NCBI GenBank assembly: GCA_015231515.1
Contig: JADGBM010000029.1
Span: 1 to 32,341 of the forward strand
Direction of reading: 5' to 3'
From: Desulfobulbaceae bacterium
Lineage (GTDB): Bacteria > Desulfobacterota > Desulfobulbia > Desulfobulbales > VMSU01
DNA: 32,341 nucleotides
Under the pieces are notes generated by a model that was not told the DNA's origin, made no database searches, and saw nothing but the letters and a program-made list of their open reading frames with translations. How positions within the stretch are numbered: position 1 is the stretch's first letter; each line of letters starts with the position of its first letter. This document shows, one piece after another, positions 10,066 through 28,737 of this stretch. The translations under genes and the position numbers were made by a program.

Positions 10066-12360
10066 TTACGTTGGCAGACGAACTTCTGCTGTAGTACCTG
10101 TTTCTGGTGAGGAAGTAAAGACAAGTGTGCCGCCATGCTCTTTAATAATTCCTGCTGAAACTGACAGACCTAAACCGGTGCCACCAGAGTTTCGCTTCGT
10201 AGTGAAGAAAGGGTCTGTCAGCTGTGTGATGGTCTCTTTCGGCATCCCGACACCTTCATCGTCAACGGAGATAATAATCGTTGCAGAATTTTTTTCAAAT
10301 GAAGAGGTGACCCGTATTGCCTGCTGCGAATCGGTAAGGGCCTCGCAGGAGTTTTGGATCAGGTTGATGATGACCTGTTCAAGGCGTTGTTTGTTGCCAT
10401 AAAATTGGGGACATTGAGGGCATAACTCGACATGAAAGGCGGATGTCGACTTTTTTACCAGATTATGGGTAAGGCGAATCGCCGTTTCGATGATTTTGTT
10501 AATATCAAGCAGTTCAGCGGCTGTTGGTTTGTCCTTTCGTGCGTAGTCTTTAAGGTCTTTAACAATGTTTTTAATTCTTTTGCCGCTGTCAATCAGTTCG
10601 CTGAAAAGTTGTGGGATCTGTAGTCGCATTTCGCTGTAGTCTAAACCAGCAACAATAAACTCACCATTTTCTCGATAGTACTGCTCCAGGATCGGGCTGA
10701 CATCCTGCCAGGCCTTTGTAAGCATGGGGGCATTGAGCATGGCGATACTGTTTGGGTTGTTTATCTCATGGGCCACCCCTGAAACCAGAAGCCCAAGGGA
10801 GCGCATCTTGTCGGCCTGCACAAGCTGCTGCCTGCGGAGTTCAGCCTCTTTTTCGCTCTGTTTTCGTTCTGAAATATCGCGAACAATCCAGATGGCGTGC
10901 CACTGTTTCTTGATCTGGGTGGCAGAAAGAGACAGTTCAATCGGGATGTCGCTGCCGTCGATTCTTTTTGCGAAAAGTTCTAAAATGTCAGATGGCGCAG
11001 CGGCATTTGTGTGTGAAAAATCTTTTGAATCAGAGAGGGTTTGTTGCTCGATGCGGGTTAATGAGAGGAGTTCGTGTACCGGTTGCCCCATCGCCTGATC
11101 TTCATTATAGCCAAACATGCGCTCTGCCGACTTGTTCCAGTAGGCAATATTGCCGCTGTTATCCATCATGATAATGGCATCTTGTGCTGATGATGTCAGT
11201 TTCCGGAACTTATTTTCGCTTTCCCGGAGCTGTTGTTCGGCCAACCGACTTGCCGAACGCGTTTGGAAGTAGTGTTGAGCCAGGATATTTAACTCGTCGG
11301 CCAGGACGGTGATTTCCTGGGGCCCGGGCCACTGAAAACGGACATTCTCATCATTCTTGAGTATTTTGTCGAGACCCTGCAGGATGTTTTTTTTGATATG
11401 GTCAATCCTGAAAGCGATAAAATTGGCAATGCAGAAAATAACAAACATGGTTGCCATAAGGACAATGGAGATATTGATAATCAACGATCGCCGCCATTTT
11501 TGTGCGGTTCCTTTGTCGATGATGATGCCGGCCCAGATGAGTGGTGCCGGTGAGTTGTCTGACATGATTGGCAACCATGAAATCGTGTGCTCCTCCGGTG
11601 TTTTCCAGATAAAGGGTCTGTTGTCGGAAAACTTGTGCTTAAGGGCGTCTGCATATTCGTAGGCGCTGATGTCTGTGAGGGAACTCTGGTTAGCTGGTGC
11701 TGTGGTTTGAAACGAAAGAGGAGTTGTGGTGTTACCGGCGGGGTTCAGCCAGAGCACATGGTCTTCAGCGGCCAGTAACGATATCTTTGCTTGCAAAAAG
11801 ATCGTGCCAATTGCATCGCCATTTTCAAGCACCGAATAATAAAAAATTATTTTTGTCTCATTTGATTCATGAGAGCTTTCTTGGTGCATGAAAATGCCGC
11901 TTGCTGAAAGTTTCTGTGAGGGTACTGGCAGATACTCAGGTGTTTTTGTAGTGCTGATAAACTGTCTGCTTTCCTCTGGGTTGCGCTCTAGAGTAGTTTT
12001 TCCGGTACCATTGACGGTGCAAAAGAAGAGGCCTTCTATCTCGATATTTTCACCGTACCACTGGTTGATTACCATTTCCATATTTAGAAGGGCTATAGGG
12101 GCGACCGGGGTTTCACTGTTTAGCTGACTGAAAAGTTCCTGGCTTTCGCGAAGGGCGGCTATGCGGTCGAGGTCTGTTGCAACTTTAGAAATTTTTTCAG
12201 AAAATGCCTGGCTGCTCAGCTTGGAACGTTTGCCGATGTTTTCCTGAAGGGACTCTTCGTGTCTATTAATGTGGTTTTGTAAGTTTATAGAAACCAGAAC
12301 CAGTAAGGGCAGGGTACCTATGGCAAGGATGGTGAAGAATATGATGCTTTTTAGTTTCAT
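10066..12360 (-). CDS. PAS-containing sensor histidine kinase
   Basis: A 764-residue membrane kinase. TM1 is about residues 6-27, followed by a large periplasmic region of about 265 residues, TM2 about 294-316 and a HAMP-like linker. A PAS domain spans about 385-500 (SAQDAIIMMDNSGNIAYWNKSAERMFGY is its start; WIVRDISERK is its end). HisKA has His531 (LLVSGVAHEINNPNS). HATPase has N666/N670, DEGVGMP at 701 and a GGTGLGLS lid. The active-site residues look complete and there is no receiver. The periplasmic region contains a Cys114 and an abundance of Ser/Thr, but I recognise no named sensor fold. The gene precedes the WYL regulator on the same strand. The start is plausible because TM1 begins within six residues, although no clear Shine-Dalgarno is present. 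Confidence 0.9.
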   Translation of the reverse strand: MKLKSIIFFTILAIGTLPLLVLVSINLQNHINRHEESLQENIGKRSKLSSQAFSEKISKVATDLDRIAALRESQELFSQLNSETPVAPIALLNMEMVINQWYGENIEIEGLFFCTVNGTGKTTLERNPEESRQFISTTKTPEYLPVPSQKLSASGIFMHQESSHESNETKIIFYYSVLENGDAIGTIFLQAKISLLAAEDHVLWLNPAGNTTTPLSFQTTAPANQSSLTDISAYEYADALKHKFSDNRPFIWKTPEEHTISWLPIMSDNSPAPLIWAGIIIDKGTAQKWRRSLIINISIVLMATMFVIFCIANFIAFRIDHIKKNILQGLDKILKNDENVRFQWPGPQEITVLADELNILAQHYFQTRSASRLAEQQLRESENKFRKLTSSAQDAIIMMDNSGNIAYWNKSAERMFGYNEDQAMGQPVHELLSLTRIEQQTLSDSKDFSHTNAAAPSDILELFAKRIDGSDIPIELSLSATQIKKQWHAIWIVRDISERKQSEKEAELRRQQLVQADKMRSLGLLVSGVAHEINNPNSIAMLNAPMLTKAWQDVSPILEQYYRENGEFIVAGLDYSEMRLQIPQLFSELIDSGKRIKNIVKDLKDYARKDKPTAAELLDINKIIETAIRLTHNLVKKSTSAFHVELCPQCPQFYGNKQRLEQVIINLIQNSCEALTDSQQAIRVTSSFEKNSATIIISVDDEGVGMPKETITQLTDPFFTTKRNSGGTGLGLSVSAGIIKEHGGTLVFTSSPETGTTAEVRLPT

Positions 12361-12702: not shown

Positions 12703-12825
12703 ATGAAGGTTAGTAAAATACTAAGATGTGTCGTTTTTTTAATAAAGAGTTAAATCCAGAACATAATTTGCTCAGTACGGGAAATATGTGATTTTGAGGT
12801 CGGTCGGCCTCAAACGATATGGAAA

Positions 12826-13236
12826 ATGGTTCAACGAAAATTGAAAAAAGATCGGCAGGAAATACAACATATTTTGTTTGCTGAAAGTGAACATGGACTG
12901 GAAAGATCCATATCGCTTATGCTGAAAATGGCAAACTACAAGGTGACAGTTGTTACTGATTGTCTTGAGGCCTATGAAAAATTAGTTGAACTCGAGGGGG
13001 TTGGGGAGTTGCCGGAATTGCTTATTGTTGATTTTGGGAGAAACAAGGCTAACAGTGAGCGTTTTGTTGAAAGTCTTACCCAATCGAGGCTGTCGGTGCC
13101 GGTAATCATAATAGCTGAATATGGCGACGAGTGGATGGTGGCAGAGGGAGTTCTAGGCAAGTCCGGTGTGTTCTTGGCAAAGCCATTTGAGCCACAGGAA
13201 CTTATGTCAGCAGTTGAGAAATTATTAAGTCACTAA
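12826..13236 (+). CDS. Stand-alone receiver-like protein, degenerate
   Basis: A 136-residue single-domain CheY-like fold. Asp69 (LLIVDFG) sits at the phospho-acceptor position and Lys119 (LAKPFEP) at the conserved Lys position. Two features are unusual: the acidic pair is Glu20/Glu22 (FAESE) rather than Asp-Asp, and the switch Thr/Ser position appears to be Ala97 (IIIAEYG). This suggests a receiver with altered or lost phosphorylation switching. The N-terminus is extended by about 13 basic residues (MVQRKLKKDRQEI). The ribosome site is weak. It lies 97 bp upstream of the Sec-rhodanese gene on the same strand. Co-expression is possible, but a hairpin separates them. No output domain is present. 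Confidence 0.75.
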   Translation: MVQRKLKKDRQEIQHILFAESEHGLERSISLMLKMANYKVTVVTDCLEAYEKLVELEGVGELPELLIVDFGRNKANSERFVESLTQSRLSVPVIIIAEYGDEWMVAEGVLGKSGVFLAKPFEPQELMSAVEKLLSH

Positions 13237-13256
13237 AACATTCTTGATAGGATAAC

Positions 13257-13289
13257 CCAACTGAAAACGAAATCTGTTTTTATAGTTGG
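13257..13289 (+). other. Hairpin between receiver gene and Sec-rhodanese gene
   Basis: CCAACT (13257-13262) pairs with AGTTGG (13284-13289), and AAAAC (13264-13268) pairs with GTTTT (13276-13280), giving an 11-bp interrupted stem. No T-run follows, so it is not a classic terminator. It may be a leader structure or a weak terminator of the receiver gene. Confidence 0.4.
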
Positions 13290-13333
13290 AGAAAAAATAG
13301 AAAAAGACAAACCAGAACCTAAAGGAGGTTGCG

Positions 13334-14647
13334 ATGTTACAAATTCACTCAAGGAAGATTGTTGCGGCATTGGTTGCAATGGCACTATTTGCCGGTGGTC
13401 CGGTGCTTGGCAGTGCGGTTGCGTCAGAAGGTACAATGGCTGTGGAGGCCAAGAAAGAGCAAAACGTCTTTAAAGGTAAGATACAAGGGGTTTCCAAGAA
13501 GGCAAAAAGTATTGCTATTGAAGTTGGCAAAGGTGAAAGCGCCAAGGTAATGATGGTTCGGTTTACTGATGCTACAGTGGGGATGGAGTTTGCCGTAGAT
13601 GGTGATGCTGCAATTATCGCCTATGAAGTTGTTGGTAAGGATAAAGTCGCTACAGTGATCAAACCGAAATTGGCAGAACTGCCGGAAGGTGTTACTGAGA
13701 TGCACCCGGAAGAGTTGATGGAGCTGGTTGCGATGGGCCCGGAAAAAGGTAAGTATTTGCTGGTCGATTCACGGCCTGCGCCTCGATTTGCGGATGGACA
13801 TATAGCGAGTTCAGTCTCTATTCCAGTTGAGAAGATGAAGAAAGAAGGCGCGGCACTTATGCCTGCCGATAAGGATATTCAACTGATCTTCTATTGCGGA
13901 GGGCCTACCTGAGGTATGAGTACAACTTCCGCCGGTCTGGCGAAGAAACTCGGTTATACCAATATCAAAGTAATGCTCAAAGGCGTTCCTGGCTGGAAAA
14001 AAGCTAAGAACAAGGTTGTGGCCAGTGATGCTCACATTGAAAAAGGCAATATTATCCTTGTTGATGTCCGTCCTGCTGCTGAGGCTGCAAAAGGATTTAT
14101 CGATAGGGCTGTCAACATTCCTTTTGATGAGCTGGAAGATGCAAAAGATGATTTCCCTCTAAAGGCGCCGGTTGTGGTCTATGGTGATGATGCTGAGAAG
14201 GCCTATTCGATGATAGCAAAATGGGGCCTGAAAACTGTTGCACTGGTTGATGGTGGCCTTGAAGGGTACGTAAGCCGAGGGCATGCACTTAAATCAGGTG
14301 AACCAGATATTGATGTAAGCTGGGAGCGTAAACTTGGTGAGGGCGAGGTTACCTTAGATGAGTTTATTAAGGCATCGGAGGGTAAGGTTGCCGAGGCAAT
14401 GATCCTGGACGTCCGAACCACTGACGAGACAGCCAAGGGCCAGTATTCCAACTCTGTCGCGATTCCTTTAGATGAGTTGGAGGGGCGAATCGCAGAACTT
14501 TCCAAGGATAAAGAGTACTTGATTCACTGTTCAACTGGGGCAAGGGCTGAAATGGCTTATGCTATCATGAAAAAAGCTGGGATGAAGTCACGATGTCTCA
14601 TTGCCGATGTTGAATGCACTGCCCCGGGAGAGTGCTCGGCAGACTAA
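13334..14647 (+). CDS. Exported triple-rhodanese selenoprotein (in-frame TGA read as Sec193)
   Basis: Read through the TGA at 13910-13912, this is one 437-residue protein. Residues 1-31 are a signal peptide (cut near AVAS-EG), so it should act in the periplasm. Residues about 43-110 form a small beta-rich domain of unknown type. Rhodanese domain 1 (about 118-230) has a YLLVDSRPAPRFADGHI entry and the active loop FYCGGPT-U-GMS, where the TGA stands at the catalytic position of YCxGxxC-type rhodaneses. Domain 2 (about 231-320) lacks a catalytic Cys (VVYGDDAEKA). Domain 3 (about 335-425) has Cys399 (IHCSTGAR). The start is firm: AAAGGAGG lies 5 nt before ATG. Translation restart at ATG 13916 is unlikely, as its GAGG is only 1 nt away. 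Rhodaneses move sulfane sulfur, so the Sec probably handles persulfide-type chemistry (inference). A strong terminator follows at 14693. Confidence 0.88.
13910..13945 (+). promoter_or_regulatory. Bacterial SECIS element (UGA plus downstream hairpin)
   Basis: The recoded TGA is at 13910-13912. Thirteen nucleotides later CTTCCGCC (13926-13933) pairs with GGCGAAG (13939-13945), leaving one bulged C and a five-base loop GGTCT (13934-13938). The loop starts 21 nt after the TGA. A G-containing apical loop within roughly 16-37 nt of the UGA is what bacterial SelB recognises, and GGUCU is the loop core of the E. coli fdhF element. The hairpin lies within the coding frame, as bacterial SECIS elements do. 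Confidence 0.85.
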
Positions 14648-14692
14648 CCCTACTAAAAAAAACGTACAACACCATACCATAGTTTTACCCAC

Positions 14693-14727
14693 AAAGGCGG
14701 TCTCCGGAAGAGATCGCCTTTTTTTAT
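14693..14727 (+). terminator. Rho-independent terminator after the Sec-rhodanese gene
   Basis: AAAGGCGGTCTC (14693-14704) pairs with GAGATCGCCTTT (14710-14721) with one G-T pair and a five-base loop, and a run of seven T follows. It lies 45 bp after the rhodanese stop at 14647, and its placement supports the downstream half being the true end of the transcript. Confidence 0.9.
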
Positions 14728-14780
14728 TTGGAATTAGGCAATGAAAAAAAAATATATATGCGTTAATAAATAGTGGAAAT

Positions 14781-14804
14781 GTCTGACCGCTTCGGCGGTC
14801 AGAC
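14781..14804. other. Perfect 10-bp hairpin with TTCG tetraloop
   Basis: GTCTGACCGC and GCGGTCAGAC flank TTCG. It lies 60 bp before mltB. UUCG-capped stems are very stable. No T-run follows on either strand, so termination is not obvious; it could protect RNA ends or mark a dispersed element. Confidence 0.6.
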
Positions 14805-14864
14805 CTGAAGGCAATCTATCTGGAAAACAGGTCAAGCCCATGAGTAGAATTCTCTCGGTTATTT

Positions 14865-15827
14865 ATGAATAAAATTATATGGTTGTCTATTATCTTGCTG
14901 CTTTCCTTCTGTGGGCTGCTACATGCGCAGGAGAACGATTTTGCTCAATGGTTGACAGCTCTTAAGTACGAGGCTCTTCAGGATGGTGTCTCGGCAGAGA
15001 CCTTAGATAAAGCCTTTGAGAAAGTTAAACCCAATGAACTTGTTCTTAAACTTGACCGGAATCAACCGGAGTTCAAACTAACTCTTGAAACTTACTTAAA
15101 CAGAGCGGTTTCTACTTCCAGGGTCTTGAAAGGGCGCGCCAAGCTTAAAGAAAATAAGGAAATTCTTGATGAAGTTGCCAAAAGCTACGGGGTTCAGCCC
15201 CGGTTTTTAATTGCACTTTGGGGTGTTGAAACCGATTTTAGCAGGGTGTTAGGCAGCTTTCCGGTAATTGAGTCTTTGGTAACTCTGGCCTATGATCCTA
15301 GGCGCAGTTCATTTTTCCGTAAAGAACTTCTGCACGCACTGCACGTGGTTGATGGAGGTCTTGCTACGGTTAAAACCCTTGAGGGTTCATGGGCAGGGGC
15401 ATTTGGCGGGTTGCAGTTTTTGCCCTCAGTGTATCGAATTTACGCGCAGGATTTTAATAACAATGGCCAGGTTGATATATGGCATGAACCAGGAGATCTA
15501 TTTGCCACAGGCGCCAATTATCTTGCCAAATCCGGTTGGCGTTCTGACCAGACTTGGGGAAGGCAGGTGCTTTTACCAGAAGCATTCAATTCAAAGCTCT
15601 TGGGTTTTGACACAAGTAAGACAATATCCGAGTGGCAAGCTTTGGGAGTTCGGCGTCTCAATGGCACAGATCTTCCTGACAGAGATTTCCCCTCTTCCAT
15701 AATCCAGCCGGATAAAGAAGACCCACGCCTTTTTCTGGTCTACAATAATTTTCACACGCTCTTAAAGTGGAATCGGTCAAACTATTACGCCGTTGCAGTT
15801 GGTTTGTTGTCGGATATGTTGAGGTGA
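14865..15827 (+). CDS. mltB: Lytic murein transglycosylase B
   Basis: A periplasmic or membrane-associated enzyme that cleaves the MurNAc-GlcNAc bond of peptidoglycan to form 1,6-anhydro ends. The 320-residue protein opens with a signal peptide (about 1-21). A Cys at 16 follows a poor lipobox (LSFC), so lipoprotein status is doubtful. The SLT_2 domain includes the catalytic Glu122 (ALWGVETDFSR), the AYDPRRSSFF block, the SWAGAFGGLQFLPS motif near residues 177-190, and a DFNNNGQVDIW calcium-loop-like segment as in Slt35. It ends with the NNFHTLLKWNRSNYYAVAV block typical of the family. It appears to be a single gene between two non-coding hairpin regions. The ribosome site at the ATG is weak. 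Confidence 0.93.
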   Translation: MNKIIWLSIILLLSFCGLLHAQENDFAQWLTALKYEALQDGVSAETLDKAFEKVKPNELVLKLDRNQPEFKLTLETYLNRAVSTSRVLKGRAKLKENKEILDEVAKSYGVQPRFLIALWGVETDFSRVLGSFPVIESLVTLAYDPRRSSFFRKELLHALHVVDGGLATVKTLEGSWAGAFGGLQFLPSVYRIYAQDFNNNGQVDIWHEPGDLFATGANYLAKSGWRSDQTWGRQVLLPEAFNSKLLGFDTSKTISEWQALGVRRLNGTDLPDRDFPSSIIQPDKEDPRLFLVYNNFHTLLKWNRSNYYAVAVGLLSDMLR

Positions 15828-23632: not shown

Positions 23633-24568
23633 TCAGTTTGTTGGTTCCTTTAAAAGGTCGGTGCTGAGGTAGCGTTCTCCAGTGTCAGGGAGTATGACCA
23701 CGATGGTTTTTCCCCGGTTATCCTCTTTTTTGGCAGTTTCAAGAGCTGCAAATGCGGCTGCCCCTGATGAGATTCCGCACAAGATGCCTTCCTGCAAGGC
23801 CAACTGTTTTGCACAGTCGATTGCTTGTTCATTACTGACACAGAAAATTTCATCGATTATGGAGGTGTTTAAGACGTCTGGAATAAACCCTGCCCCGATT
23901 CCCTGGATTTTATGCGGGCCGGGTGTGCCGCCTGAAAGAACAGGGGAGTCTTTAGGCTCAACGGCGATGCTGCGAACTGTAGCTTTACGTCCTTTGATGA
24001 CTTCAGAAACACCAGTTATAGTGCCGCCAGTTCCGACACCGGCTATAAAGATATCGATGGTGCCGTCGGTGTCGCGCCAGATCTCCTCTGCAGTGGTCTG
24101 GCGGTGAATTTGGGGGTTGGCAGGATTGGAAAACTGATCCGGCATAAAGCTGTCTGGTATTTCATCGCAAAGTTCTTTGGCCTTGGCAATGGCCCCTTTC
24201 ATGCCTAAAGGGCCAGGAGTAAGCACTAGTTCGGCCCCAAAATGTTTGAGCAGCATACGTCTTTCAAGACTCATTGTCTCAGGCATTGTCAGAAGGAGTT
24301 TCAAACCCCGCACAGCACAGGTGAAGGCTAAGGCGATACCTGTGTTGCCGCTGGTTGGCTCAATAATAGTTGTTGAAGGCCTGATTTTTCCGGCACTAAC
24401 ACCAGCATCAATCATCGCCACACCAATTCTGTCTTTTACGCAAAACAATGGGTTGGCCGATTCAACCTTTGCCAGCACGGTGGCAACGCCATCCTTATTG
24501 ATGGCGTTGAGTTGAACAAGTGGAGAGTTGCCGATGGTTTTGGTGAGGTCTTGATAGATATTTTTCAT
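23633..24568 (-). CDS. cysK: Cysteine synthase (O-acetylserine sulfhydrylase)
   Basis: A PLP enzyme that joins sulfide and O-acetylserine to give cysteine. The 311-residue length is normal. The PLP Lys is Lys45 in [11 protein letters not shown]; Cys43 replaces the more usual Ser of NPxxSVKDR, a small oddity. The substrate loop PTSGNTG is at 71-77, with [11 protein letters not shown], the [11 protein letters not shown] active-site loop and a CGISSGAAA segment. The start ATG 24568 is 2 nt after the cysE stop, with AGGGGGA 7 nt upstream, so the two are coupled and may form the cysteine synthase complex. It is followed by the receiver gene after 125 bp. Confidence 0.95.
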
Positions 24569-24570
24569 GA

Positions 24571-25554
24571 TTAATCCCCCTTGTCACTTGATTTTGAAAT
24601 GTTGTTGCCCACAAAGTTTAAATCCGGGCGCTTCAGTAAAACTTTGGTGTCCACAGGAACACTCTCTGTGAGCCAGATATTGCCGCCAATAACTGAGCGG
24701 GCGCCAATTGTGGTCTGACCACCGAGTATTGTCGTGTTGGCATAGATGATAACTTCATCTTCAATGGTAGGGTGACGTTTCTGGTTGCGAAACCGGTCGC
24801 CGGCATCTCGTGGTAAAGAGAGGGCGCCGAGAGTTACACCTTGATACAGTCTGACCCGACTGCCAATTTCAGTTGTCTCGCCAATAACGATACCGGTACC
24901 GTGGTCAATAAAAAAGCTATCGCCAATGGTGGCACCAGGGTGTATGTCGATACCAGTCAGGCTATGGGCGTGTTCCGTCATAATTCGTGGTAGTACGGGG
25001 ACTGAAAGTGTGTGGAGGGCATGCGCTATTCGGTAAATTGTTATTGCCAAGAGCCCTGGGTAGCTGAAAATAATCTCATCGGGACTTTGGGCGGCAGGGT
25101 CGCCCTCCAGGGCAGCTTTGATGTCTGTGGACAGAAGTTTTTCGATCTGGGGCAGTTCGGTGATAAACTGCATAGAGATTTCATGACCGCGAACTCGGCA
25201 ATGAGTACACGATTTTTTTGATCGGAAGCACTCATGCTGCATGGCAAGCACAATTTGTTTGCTCAGATTTGTATAGAGCTCTGTGAGCTCCTGACCAATA
25301 ACATACTCTATGCTGTTGGCATTGATTGTTGCATCAGTAAAATAGCCGGGAAAAAGGATGCGACGGGTCTGGTGAATAATTTGAACTACTGAGTCATGTG
25401 AGGGTAGCGGTACAGGGCCTGCGTGTTCAGAACTCTCTTTGCTCTCCCAGGACTTGACAAGACGCGCAACAGTTTTGGGTATTTTATCGGAAAACAGCCG
25501 GATCTGTTCCTCTTCGTCGATACATTGAAAGTTAGCCTGGAGTAGTTCATCCAT
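24571..25554 (-). CDS. cysE: Serine O-acetyltransferase (left-handed beta-helix type)
   Basis: It makes O-acetylserine from serine and acetyl-CoA for CysK. The 327-residue protein has a long helical N-terminus (about 1-200) of the type seen in the larger SAT variants of deltaproteobacteria. The hexapeptide-repeat domain is about 200-310: [20 protein letters not shown], then [14 protein letters not shown] and [11 protein letters not shown]. The catalytic His and the Gly-rich turns are present. It starts 84 bp after metW and ends 2 nt before cysK, giving a cysE-cysK pair. Naming as cysE is by family; this larger SAT could be called by another symbol. Confidence 0.9.
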
Positions 25555-25638
25555 TGTTCTGCCTCGATATCTGGTAACATTGTTAAATGTAGGTTGATCT
25601 TCTCTGGGATGCCATGGGGCATAAAGCGCCAGGCCTCT

Positions 25639-26253
25639 CTATCCTGTGTAAGAACTATCTCTGCCGATCAGGAAAATCCCGTATGTAGCTCGCAGTTCCG
25701 GGAGAAATCGAACAATAGTCCCCTCCCTGTCGTCATTTTGGGTGTTAATTGCGACCTGCTGAAGAATTGAAAACCCGAAACTTTTTGAAAATTCGATGAA
25801 ATCATTAATCGTGATAACACGAATGTTTGGAGAGTTATACCAACTATAGGGGAGCTGGCTGGTCTGTGGTGCCCGGGCCTGGAAGAGCAGCTGCATGCGA
25901 CATCCCCAATGGCTGAAGTTTGGAAAACTCACCACCACCTTCTTGCCAATGCGCAGCAAGTCTTTAAGTAACGCCTCCGGTTGGTAGACCTGTTGAAGTG
26001 TCTGGCTTAAAACCACGTAATCAAAGGCCTGGTCAGCATAATCCTTGACCTCTTCATTAATGTCACCCTGCAAGGCAGTCAGGCCCTTCGCTATACATTT
26101 CTCGATGTTTGTCTCTTTAAAGTCAATACCGGTGCAAAGGACCTTTTTCTCTTTTTTAAGAAAATAAAGAAGATCACCCTCGCCACAGCCGAGATCTAGA
26201 ACCCTGGCTCCCGGCTCAATCCAGGAAGCAATTACCTCAAGGTCAAAGCGCAT
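25639..26253 (-). CDS. metW: Methionine biosynthesis protein MetW
   Basis: A 204-residue SAM-methyltransferase-fold protein. The SAM-binding loop is VLDLGCGEGDLLYFL (about residues 19-33), followed by GIDF and a LQGDINEEV segment. The MetW-specific central block includes DYVVLSQTLQQVYQPEALL and SFPNFSHWGCRMQLLF. It is found beside metX in many proteobacteria, where it supports homoserine acylation. The ATG at 26253 is 2 nt after the metX stop, so translation is coupled; GGAG sits about 11 nt upstream. Confidence 0.93.
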   Translation of the reverse strand: MRFDLEVIASWIEPGARVLDLGCGEGDLLYFLKKEKKVLCTGIDFKETNIEKCIAKGLTALQGDINEEVKDYADQAFDYVVLSQTLQQVYQPEALLKDLLRIGKKVVVSFPNFSHWGCRMQLLFQARAPQTSQLPYSWYNSPNIRVITINDFIEFSKSFGFSILQQVAINTQNDDREGTIVRFLPELRATYGIFLIGRDSSYTG

Positions 26254-26255
26254 AA

Positions 26256-27383
26256 TTAACAGAACTCCAGGGTCATTCGCTCGAGAAAACCCTTCAGCAG
26301 GGAGCTTAAACGCTGATTAGGTAAAAGGAATGCATCGTGCCCCCATTGTGCCTCAATTTCGCAGAAGCTGACATCGATACTGTGCTTTTTCATGCGTTTG
26401 ACCATAGCCTTGGATTTTCTGGTGGGATAGAGCCAGTCAGAGGTAAATGATACAACCAGGTATCTAGCCTTTGATTTTGCAAAGCAGGGGACACCATCCT
26501 TGGGTGGTAAGGTCATGTCAAAATAGTCGGCGGCCTTGGTTATGTAAAGAAATGAGTTTGCATCGAAACGTTCGACAAACTTGATGCCCTGGTAACGGAG
26601 ATAGCTTTCAACCTGGAAATCCGCATCAAAATTAAAGGATAAGTCTTTTTTGTTTTGCAGGCGGCGACCAAACTTATTTCGCATTGACTCGTCAGAGAGA
26701 TAGGTGATATGGCCTATCATTCTGGCAACGGCAAGGCCGAGATCCGGTTTTTTGCATCCGTAATAATCGCCATGGTTCCAGTTTGGGTCTGCCATTATCG
26801 ACTGTCTGGAGACTTCGTTAAAGGCGATGGCAAGTGCTGAGTGGCGCTGGGCGGTGGCTAAAGGCACAGCACTAAAAACCATCTCCGGATAACGAACACT
26901 CCACTCAAGAGTTTGCATGCCGCCGATTGACCCACCGATGACAGAGAGCAGCTTTGTGATGCCAAAAAAATCAATCAGCGCCTTCTGGGCTTTGACCATG
27001 TCGCCGATAGTAACAACCGGAAAAGTAAGGCCATAGGGCTTTTGGCTGGCATGGTTAACTGAGGATGGGCCTGTCGAGCCCATGCAACTGCCAATAATGT
27101 TTGTACAGATTACAAAGAATCTGTCGGTGTTGATAGCCTTGCCTGGACCGACCATGATCTCCCACCAGCCGGGTTTTTCGGAGTTCTCATGATAGCCGGC
27201 GGCATGGGCATCACCGGAAAGGGCATGGCATAACAGTATGGCATTGTTTTTCTCTGGATTTAGGGTGCCATATGTTTCATAGGCCAGAGTTACGTGTCCC
27301 AGAGTTTCACCGCTCTCAAGGGTGAGAGCGGTGGGCAGGGTGAAGAACTGTGTGTTGACCAGGCCAATCGATTCGGAAGTCAT
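26256..27383 (-). CDS. metX: Homoserine O-acetyltransferase
   Basis: An alpha/beta-hydrolase-fold enzyme that acetylates (or, in some members, succinylates) homoserine. The 375-residue protein has the nucleophile elbow GGSIGGMQ with Ser152, Asp316 (SFTSDWLYP) and His349 (QWGHDAFL) as a complete triad. The family blocks LCHALSGDAHAAG, GSCMGSTGPSS and PLATAQRHSALAIAFNE are present. The acyl preference cannot be read safely. It follows metY by 67 bp and is coupled to metW, in the usual metYXW order. Confidence 0.95.
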   Translation of the reverse strand: MTSESIGLVNTQFFTLPTALTLESGETLGHVTLAYETYGTLNPEKNNAILLCHALSGDAHAAGYHENSEKPGWWEIMVGPGKAINTDRFFVICTNIIGSCMGSTGPSSVNHASQKPYGLTFPVVTIGDMVKAQKALIDFFGITKLLSVIGGSIGGMQTLEWSVRYPEMVFSAVPLATAQRHSALAIAFNEVSRQSIMADPNWNHGDYYGCKKPDLGLAVARMIGHITYLSDESMRNKFGRRLQNKKDLSFNFDADFQVESYLRYQGIKFVERFDANSFLYITKAADYFDMTLPPKDGVPCFAKSKARYLVVSFTSDWLYPTRKSKAMVKRMKKHSIDVSFCEIEAQWGHDAFLLPNQRLSSLLKGFLERMTLEFC

Positions 27384-27450
27384 TTTTAGTGGGGTTCGAT
27401 TAAGTCAGAATATGAGCGTAATAGCAACAGGTGAACCGATACTCAGTTTA

Positions 27451-28737
27451 TTATGCCTTGCCAAGGGCCTGATCCAAGTCGGCAAGGATATCCTCAATGT
27501 TTTCGATTCCAACGGAAAGCCGAATAAAATCGTCAGTGACACCCGCTTCGGCCTGTTGTTCATGGCTGAGTTGCGAGTGCGTGGTACTGGCGGGGTGAAT
27601 GGCAAGAGATTTTGCATCGCCGACATTGGCCACGTGTGAAAATAGTCCAAGGGAATCGATAAATTTCTGGCCTGCACTAACCCCGCCGTTGATACCAAAG
27701 CCAACCATGCCGCCAAAGCCATTTTGCAGATATTTTTGAGCGAACTGGTAGGTGGGGTGGTCTGGCAGTCCCGGGTAGATAACCTTATTGACCTTTGGGT
27801 GGTTCTCAAGAAATCTGGCCACGGCTAAGGCATTTTCACTGTGCCGTTCCATACGCAGGGCAAGGGTTTCAAGCCCCTGCAAAAACAAAAAGGCATTAAA
27901 TGGACTCATGGTGGGCCCGAGATCACGTGTGAACCGAGATTTAAGTTTTACAATATAAGCCAACTGACCAAACTCTTTGAGGTAGTTTAGCCCTCCCCGG
28001 TATGAGGGGTCGTCTTCACTTAACTCGGGGAACTTACCGGTGCCCCAGTTAGTTTTGCCGGAGTCGACAACGAGGCCGCCGACGGATGTCCCGTGCCCGC
28101 ATATCCATTTAGTAGCAGAATGCATGATAATGTCGGCGCCATGGGAAAAGGGCTGGCACAGGTATGGAGTGGCAAAGGTGTTGTCGATAATCAATGGAAT
28201 GCCGGCTTCGTGGGCCGCACCTGAAACGCCTTCGATATCAAGAACATTTAATTTAGGGTTGCCAATGGTTTCTGCAAAGATAGCCTTGGTCTTGCCATCG
28301 ATCGCCTTGCTGAAATTTTCTGGTGTGGGATCGACAAACCGCACATTAATACCGAATTTTTTAGGAAATGTAAGATCAAATAAGGTGAACGTGCCGCCGT
28401 AAATGGTCTTGGAGGCAACTATGTTATCTCCACTGTTGGCAATCGTCAGGATCGACATAAAGGTGGCGGCTTGACCGGATGAGAGCGAAGCTGCTGCCAG
28501 TCCGCCTTCGAGATCGGTGATGCGTGTCTCAAGGGTCTCATAGGTTGGATTGGTAAAGCGGTTGTAGATCTCACCAGGGAAATCAGGCCCCTTTAGGGCA
28601 AAGAGATTGGCCGCCTGCTCAGTTGACGAAAAGGTGTAGGCGGTTGTTTGGTGAATCGGGACTGCGCGAGCTCTTGTAATAGGATCGGGTGTGTAGCCAC
28701 TGTGGAGTGCTTTTGTGTTAAAACCGTAGTTACCCAT
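27451..28737 (-). CDS. metY: O-acetylhomoserine sulfhydrylase (aminocarboxypropyltransferase)
   Basis: A PLP enzyme of the Cys/Met-metabolism family that makes homocysteine directly from O-acetylhomoserine and sulfide. The 428-residue length is typical of MetY rather than the shorter MetB/MetC. Lys210 ([11 protein letters not shown]) is the PLP lysine. The N-terminus ([27 protein letters not shown]) and the [16 protein letters not shown] block fit the family, as does the [29 protein letters not shown] end region. AGGAG lies 8 nt before the ATG at 28737, and a promoter is visible 45-75 bp upstream. It leads the metYXW-cysEK block. Confidence 0.95.

Follow-up and report, generated by a model that had tools for sequence, protein, structure and literature searches.

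A predicted exported selenoprotein of the Desulfobulbia with three rhodanese domains and a Cys-x4-Sec active-site loop

Plain ORF calling divides the region 13334-14647 on the plus strand of a 32,341-nt stretch of Desulfobulbaceae DNA (hereafter the window) into two ORFs of 192 and 243 codons, which raises the question of whether these are two genes, a broken one, or a single gene whose internal TGA is translated. The region forms one frame of 437 codons that runs from an ATG at 13334 to a TAA, and its sole internal stop is the TGA at 13910-13912 (codon 193), after which 244 codons remain open up to the TAA. Judging from the frame, Pfam matches, homologues and an AlphaFold model, the region almost certainly encodes one exported selenoprotein of 437 residues, composed of an N-terminal beta domain and three rhodanese domains, in which the TGA is read as selenocysteine (Sec) at position 193.

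The first ATG is preceded at a distance of 5 nt by a ribosome binding site, AAAGGAGG (13321-13328, plus strand), whereas the second ATG at 13916 is directly abutted by just GAGG and has no spaced ribosome site. Downstream of the second half lies an intrinsic terminator-like hairpin with a T run (14693-14721), the only plus strand candidate in a hairpin search of 12800-15000; the number of hits in this search is close to the shuffle mean, and the weight of the hairpin lies on its position. The joined 437-residue protein matches the Pfam Rhodanese family (PF00581) three times (E 1.4e-39, 135.1 bits against a cut-off of 22.2), with the first rhodanese stretch running across the TGA, and the upstream ORF alone yields a truncated rhodanese domain that covers positions 10-70 of the 102 in the profile. 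An earlier note, made from the letters alone, had claimed that the frame is continuous across a single TGA, that the sequences flanking this TGA form one rhodanese unit, that a good ribosome site is present only at the first ATG and that a terminator follows only the second half, and all of this is borne out.

When stops are read through, matches to the joined protein (E <= 1e-30) are found in 168 of the 258 genomes of the class, and since most of these are full length with one TGA and no other stop inside, a chance origin of the frame can be dismissed. In a contig search, relatives were recovered with an alignment as the query and none with the single protein. The named relatives are Desulfobulbia (Desulfurivibrionaceae, Desulfobulbaceae, Desulfocapsa, Desulfofustis, Desulfogranum and Desulfosediminicola), and full-length members of this three-rhodanese selenoprotein family are also found more widely in the phylum. 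Among cultured relatives, Desulfogranum japonicum (L124), Desulfofustis glycolicus (L125) and Desulfosediminicola flagellatus (L078) carry the TGA form. Both halves of the protein are conserved along their length. The earlier note had suggested looking at residue 193 in homologues for Cys or TGA, and in 110 distinct full-length homologues codon 193 is TGA in 92, TGC in 15 and TGT in three, and never anything else. Masking residue 193 and building a tree from the remaining positions gives at least nine exchanges between Sec and Cys, the exact placements of which are soft as the tree was made with a quick method. A side observation concerns the codon for Thr192 (13907-13909) just before the Sec codon, which is ACC in 18 of 18 Cys members and varied in the Sec members; this sameness is unexplained and perhaps a matter of the small sample.

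The coding sequence downstream of the TGA contains the core of a bacterial SECIS-type hairpin, CGCC-GGTCT-GGCG (13930-13942, plus strand), which is recognised by codon sameness and base pairing in the homologues. It is located 18 to 30 nt downstream of the UGA and consists of 4 bp enclosing a loop, GGUCU, that starts 21 nt past the UGA. The underlying codons 200-203 (Ala-Gly-Leu-Ala, GCC GGT CTG GCG) rank first to fourth in synonymous constraint among 190 conserved columns of the 92 TGA genes, where their excess homozygosity is 0.52-0.68 against a gene mean of 0.06, whereas in the Cys genes (n=18) the two testable Ala columns of the hairpin are at baseline (-0.01 and -0.02). All 86 distinct TGA sequences form each of the four CGCC/GGCG pairs, including by A-U, G-C and U-G replacements; in the Cys members the outermost pair forms in seven and the innermost in nine of the 18. 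More distant relatives keep the stem and have the loop changed to AGGUU or AGGAA. One Cys member (L118) differs from its near sister with Sec (L129) by a GCG to GCA change within the hairpin, which would fit a recent loss, as expected. A GGUCU-type loop with a G at such a distance from the UGA is demanded by the established bacterial SECIS model, and the conserved hairpin is, as judged from its pattern of conservation, the signature of a bacterial SECIS element. Folded by itself and compared with shuffles, the window hairpin shows no unusual stability (z -0.55), and the SECIS case therefore rests on comparison; an Rfam scan of the 32,341-nt window at the gathering threshold gave no match.

The earlier note had also tied its reading to the presence of selA, selB, selC and selD, of which selA, selB and a Sec-type selD are present in the genome; the assembly, a draft of 225 contigs that is 95.04% complete, lacks selC. 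The selB gene scores above its profile cut-off and occupies two frames of 396 and 251 codons with an apparent single frameshift (G000:C22, about 1378-1411); in relatives it is mostly in one frame. The selA gene is found in two pieces at the ends of contigs G000:C145 and G000:C80 and therefore spans an assembly gap. The selD gene (G000:C88:5408-6337) is itself a selenoprotein gene with an in-frame TGA in SRTCGUAAKIGP. In the assembly, selC turned up neither in an Rfam search nor in a DNA search that used a family member's tRNA-Sec as the query, and the sub-cut-off Rfam hits were rejected as they were tRNAs for Trp, Tyr, Ser, Leu, Thr and Arg. Because selC is present in nine of nine other genomes of the family and the draft is incomplete, its absence is likely to be an assembly gap, and the frame break in selB and the missing selC are both probably draft errors. 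Across the class, selC is found in 212 and selB in 215 of the 258 genomes.

The same genome contains a gene for TsoB with two TGA codons that scores above the NF045694 cut-off. This gene is part of a tso-type cluster (G000:C95:500-7000, minus strand) in which the TsoB loop reads FYUAGLSUVRS, alongside a TGA-containing gene for a small protein, RFFLNEPNGAPUKHFN, in which NEPxGxxU is the TsoC motif (PMC13188914). The cluster also encodes a TauE/SafE-like permease and a DsrE-like protein, both named by eye, and it adds at least two more predicted selenoproteins to the genome.

If the TGA were simply a stop, the locus would hold either two genes or a pseudogene created by a nonsense mutation or a sequencing error, with a downstream half that is dead or translated from the ATG at 13916. 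The two called ORFs agree with this, as do the 225 contigs of the draft and the apparent frame break in selB, but a TGA that recurs at the same codon across many genera, with Cys in all other homologues, and conservation that extends along both halves do not. A second gene would moreover lack a spaced ribosome site and would start inside the active-site loop, and a pseudogene would not keep an RNA hairpin that is linked to the TGA. The TGA/Cys-only variation together with the TGA-specific synonymous constraint refutes the pseudogene, sequencing-error and two-gene readings in the main, and the chance that any of them is correct is very slight. It is just as improbable that the UGA is recoded by a route other than Sec, such as near-cognate suppression by Trp or Cys or a variant code. 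The gap left by selC in the assembly would suit such a route; against it, position 193 interchanges with Cys only, selA, selB, a Sec-containing SelD and a TsoB with two TGA codons are encoded in the genome, each of the other nine genomes in the family has selC, and the hairpin is both SECIS-like and TGA-specific. The claim of the earlier note that the locus is one selenoprotein and not two genes is thus upheld by codon 193, by the Sec machinery and by the hairpin.

The selenoprotein is predicted to carry an export signal at residues 1-31 (13334-13426, delimited by eye), and in several relatives the signal helix is followed by a lipobox-like Cys. The AlphaFold model (pLDDT 87.7, pTM 0.75) places this helix at residues 5-17, followed by a disordered, low-confidence linker, a beta domain at residues 45-111 (13466-13666) that has no Pfam match, and three rhodanese domains, all encoded on the plus strand. 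Rhodanese domain 1 (about residues 120-230; 13691-14023) is defined by Pfam, alignment, model and fold and contains the loop C188-GGPT-U193-GMS. Domain 2 (about residues 232-322; 14027-14299) and domain 3 (about residues 337-426; 14342-14611) are defined by Pfam, alignment and model; the active loop of the former is YGDD, without a Cys, and that of the latter is the canonical HCSTGAR. Domain 3 fits the canonical six-residue CxxGxR loop, in which the nucleophile C399 (14528-14530) and R404 are invariant, whereas this loop is missing from domain 2 and is extended by two residues in domain 1 according to the alignment. When aligned with solved rhodaneses, Cys188 (13895-13897), which is invariant among the homologues, corresponds to the canonical nucleophile and Sec193 to the second Cys of BH2092 (YCWGPACN). 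The earlier note had stated that the TGA replaces exactly the catalytic Cys, which is right in so far as a conserved Cys of the active loop is replaced, but the canonical nucleophile is Cys188, five residues earlier. As this residue is kept as Cys, Sec193 is better described as the second member of a Cys-x4-Sec pair. Near the C-terminus the protein has a strongly conserved Cys pair, VEC...C, at codons 428 and 434 (14615-14617 and 14633-14635), with C434 invariant, and this pair may be an additional site for redox chemistry or for passing on sulfur.

Reviews list five forms of rhodanese selenoprotein (PMC13188914, PMC9312934), in agreement with the remark of the earlier note that Sec rhodanese-like proteins had been predicted before. 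TsoB (NF045694; form 5 in PMC13188914) has the loop FY-U-AGLx-U-VRS with the same spacing as FY-C-GGPT-U-GMS here, and its rhodanese shares 37% identity with domain 1 over 92 residues. TsoB differs in having Sec at both loop positions (U-x4-U) and in being fused to a DsbD-like membrane part, whereas the protein from 13334-14647 has Cys at the first loop position, three rhodanese domains and no membrane part. It was rejected as a TsoB as it reaches 53.6 bits against a cut-off of 805, matches in the domain only and contains one TGA. Form 3 (LYCAU, NF041203) and forms 2 and 4 likewise have Sec in or near the rhodanese active loop, but form 3 has a CxU motif and a 126-position model, and forms 2 and 4 have UxxG, unlike the CxxxxU found here. 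An assignment to form 3 was rejected on this motif and on a score of 40.6 bits against a cut-off of 115, and no NCBIfam model covers the protein above its cut-off. Form 1 (WP_010941598.1; PMC13188914, PMC9312934) resembles the protein in its PF00581 domain, its single Sec and its UxxS motif. This motif is present here as UGMS and in more distant relatives, for example L150-L155, as UVLS. Compared by motif description, form 1, the reference sequence of which we take to be from Geobacter sulfurreducens, may be the same family.

Among solved structures, BH2092 of Bacillus halodurans (PDB 3nhv/3o3w) is the closest single-domain sequence match, with a C-x4-C loop, and is among the closest folds (Foldseek TM by target 0.71-0.80; Z 17). 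Unlike the selenoprotein it is a single domain with two Cys and no Sec, and it was deposited without a named function. YnjE (2wlr), EanB (6ktw) and the PA2603-type thiosulfate sulfurtransferase (1yt8) also have several rhodanese domains per chain, and in YnjE and EanB not all of these are catalytic. None of the three contains Sec, and because the whole-chain Foldseek rmsd is near 17, their domain arrangement is different or uncertain and is not counted as shared. By description, another parallel in architecture is RS06465, a lipoprotein of Desulfurivibrio dismutans and thus of the Desulfobulbia, which is exported and has three PF00581 domains but is encoded within a polysulfide reductase (Psr) operon (PMC12142623).

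The fold and the relatives suggest that the selenoprotein probably acts as a periplasmic sulfane-sulfur carrier or reductase in extracytoplasmic polysulfide or sulfur metabolism, a role in which we have rather less confidence than in the selenoprotein itself. SelB and Sec-tRNA would read the UGA at 13910 as selenocysteine under the direction of the downstream hairpin, as the comparative evidence indicates. In the periplasm, Cys188 and Sec193 would then lie within one active-site loop of domain 1, where Cys188 (or Sec193) could accept sulfane sulfur from polysulfide, thiosulfate or a persulfide, and the partner residue could resolve this via a selenenylsulfide, leading to faster release or reduction. 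Domain 3 with its canonical Cys399 loop may carry or hand on the persulfide, and domain 2 is presumably structural. The secreted three-rhodanese protein of the Psr operon in D. dismutans is strongly upregulated in sulfur disproportionation (PMC12142623), D. alkaliphilus shows very high expression of periplasmic rhodaneses (PMC13047784), and one rhodanese of Desulfolithobacter was detected under thiosulfate disproportionation only (PMC9751629); these proteins are set beside the present family as context, by description and not by a sequence match.

A less likely view, which nevertheless deserves attention, accepts the selenoprotein but assigns it to protein or selenium redox chemistry, for example disulfide/selenenylsulfide exchange, the reduction of peroxide or selenite, or arsenate/phosphate chemistry in the longer loop, instead of sulfane-sulfur transfer. 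The C-x4-U loop of domain 1 does resemble a redox pair and, by alignment, exceeds the canonical CxxGxR by two residues, in the related TsoB this rhodanese is fused with a membrane reductase of the DsbD type, and the neighbouring genes encode two-component regulators. Sulfane-sulfur transfer is favoured by domain 3, which retains the canonical rhodanese loop with its invariant Cys, and by the published links of exported three-rhodanese proteins of relatives with polysulfide reductase and sulfur disproportionation. Sulfane-sulfur transfer also underlies a wider proposal that is put forward tentatively and is more doubtful still. It holds that the proteins form an unrecognised widespread family in which the Cys-x4-Sec pair serves as a periplasmic selenenylsulfide relay, that selenium supply limits the extracytoplasmic turnover of polysulfide or elemental sulfur in Desulfobulbia, and that among the periplasmic rhodaneses considered in recent models of sulfur oxidation and disproportionation there are overlooked selenoproteins with split annotations.

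Sec rhodaneses as such are already catalogued, and the protein from 13334-14647, for which the reading as a selenoprotein has very good support, is a widespread member of this kind with a notable mixed Cys/Sec pair and an exported three-domain form. Since ORF calling yields two truncated rhodaneses and there is no NCBIfam model over its cut-off, many of the ~170 genomes of the class that carry the gene probably have it annotated wrongly. In a deep-Sep survey of 20 genomes, the annotation was correct for only 195 of 298 selenoprotein genes (PMC12013277), and one of these genomes, that of Desulfosediminicola flagellatus, carries the three-rhodanese selenoprotein family. Through this family, the use of selenium would be linked to sulfur chemistry outside the cytoplasm, in a group to which sulfur disproportionators and relatives of the cable bacteria belong. 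The repeated natural swaps between Sec and Cys, including the near-sister pair, furthermore offer a ready comparison of the benefit of Sec in a rhodanese loop.

A sulfur-enzyme operon context was sought around the gene and in its relatives and none was found, nor is any neighbour conserved family-wide. Comparison of the neighbourhoods identifies a receiver-domain response regulator directly upstream (12826-13236, plus strand) and a PAS histidine kinase (10066-12360, minus strand) as conserved neighbours in close relatives, and in the nearest relatives the genes conserved beside it encode a histidine kinase, an NtrC-like protein and a receiver protein. As the receiver protein and the histidine kinase adjoin the gene and are conserved in close relatives, regulation is suggested rather than a sulfur-enzyme operon. 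Downstream, at 14865-15827, lies a lytic transglycosylase gene (MltB-like, by eye), and the nearest Sec relative has the same transglycosylase downstream and a receiver-domain gene upstream. Further along the window, ORF translations at 23633-28737 reveal a row of cysteine and methionine biosynthesis genes encoding cysteine synthase, serine acetyltransferase, a MetW-like protein, homoserine acetyltransferase and O-acetylhomoserine sulfhydrylase.
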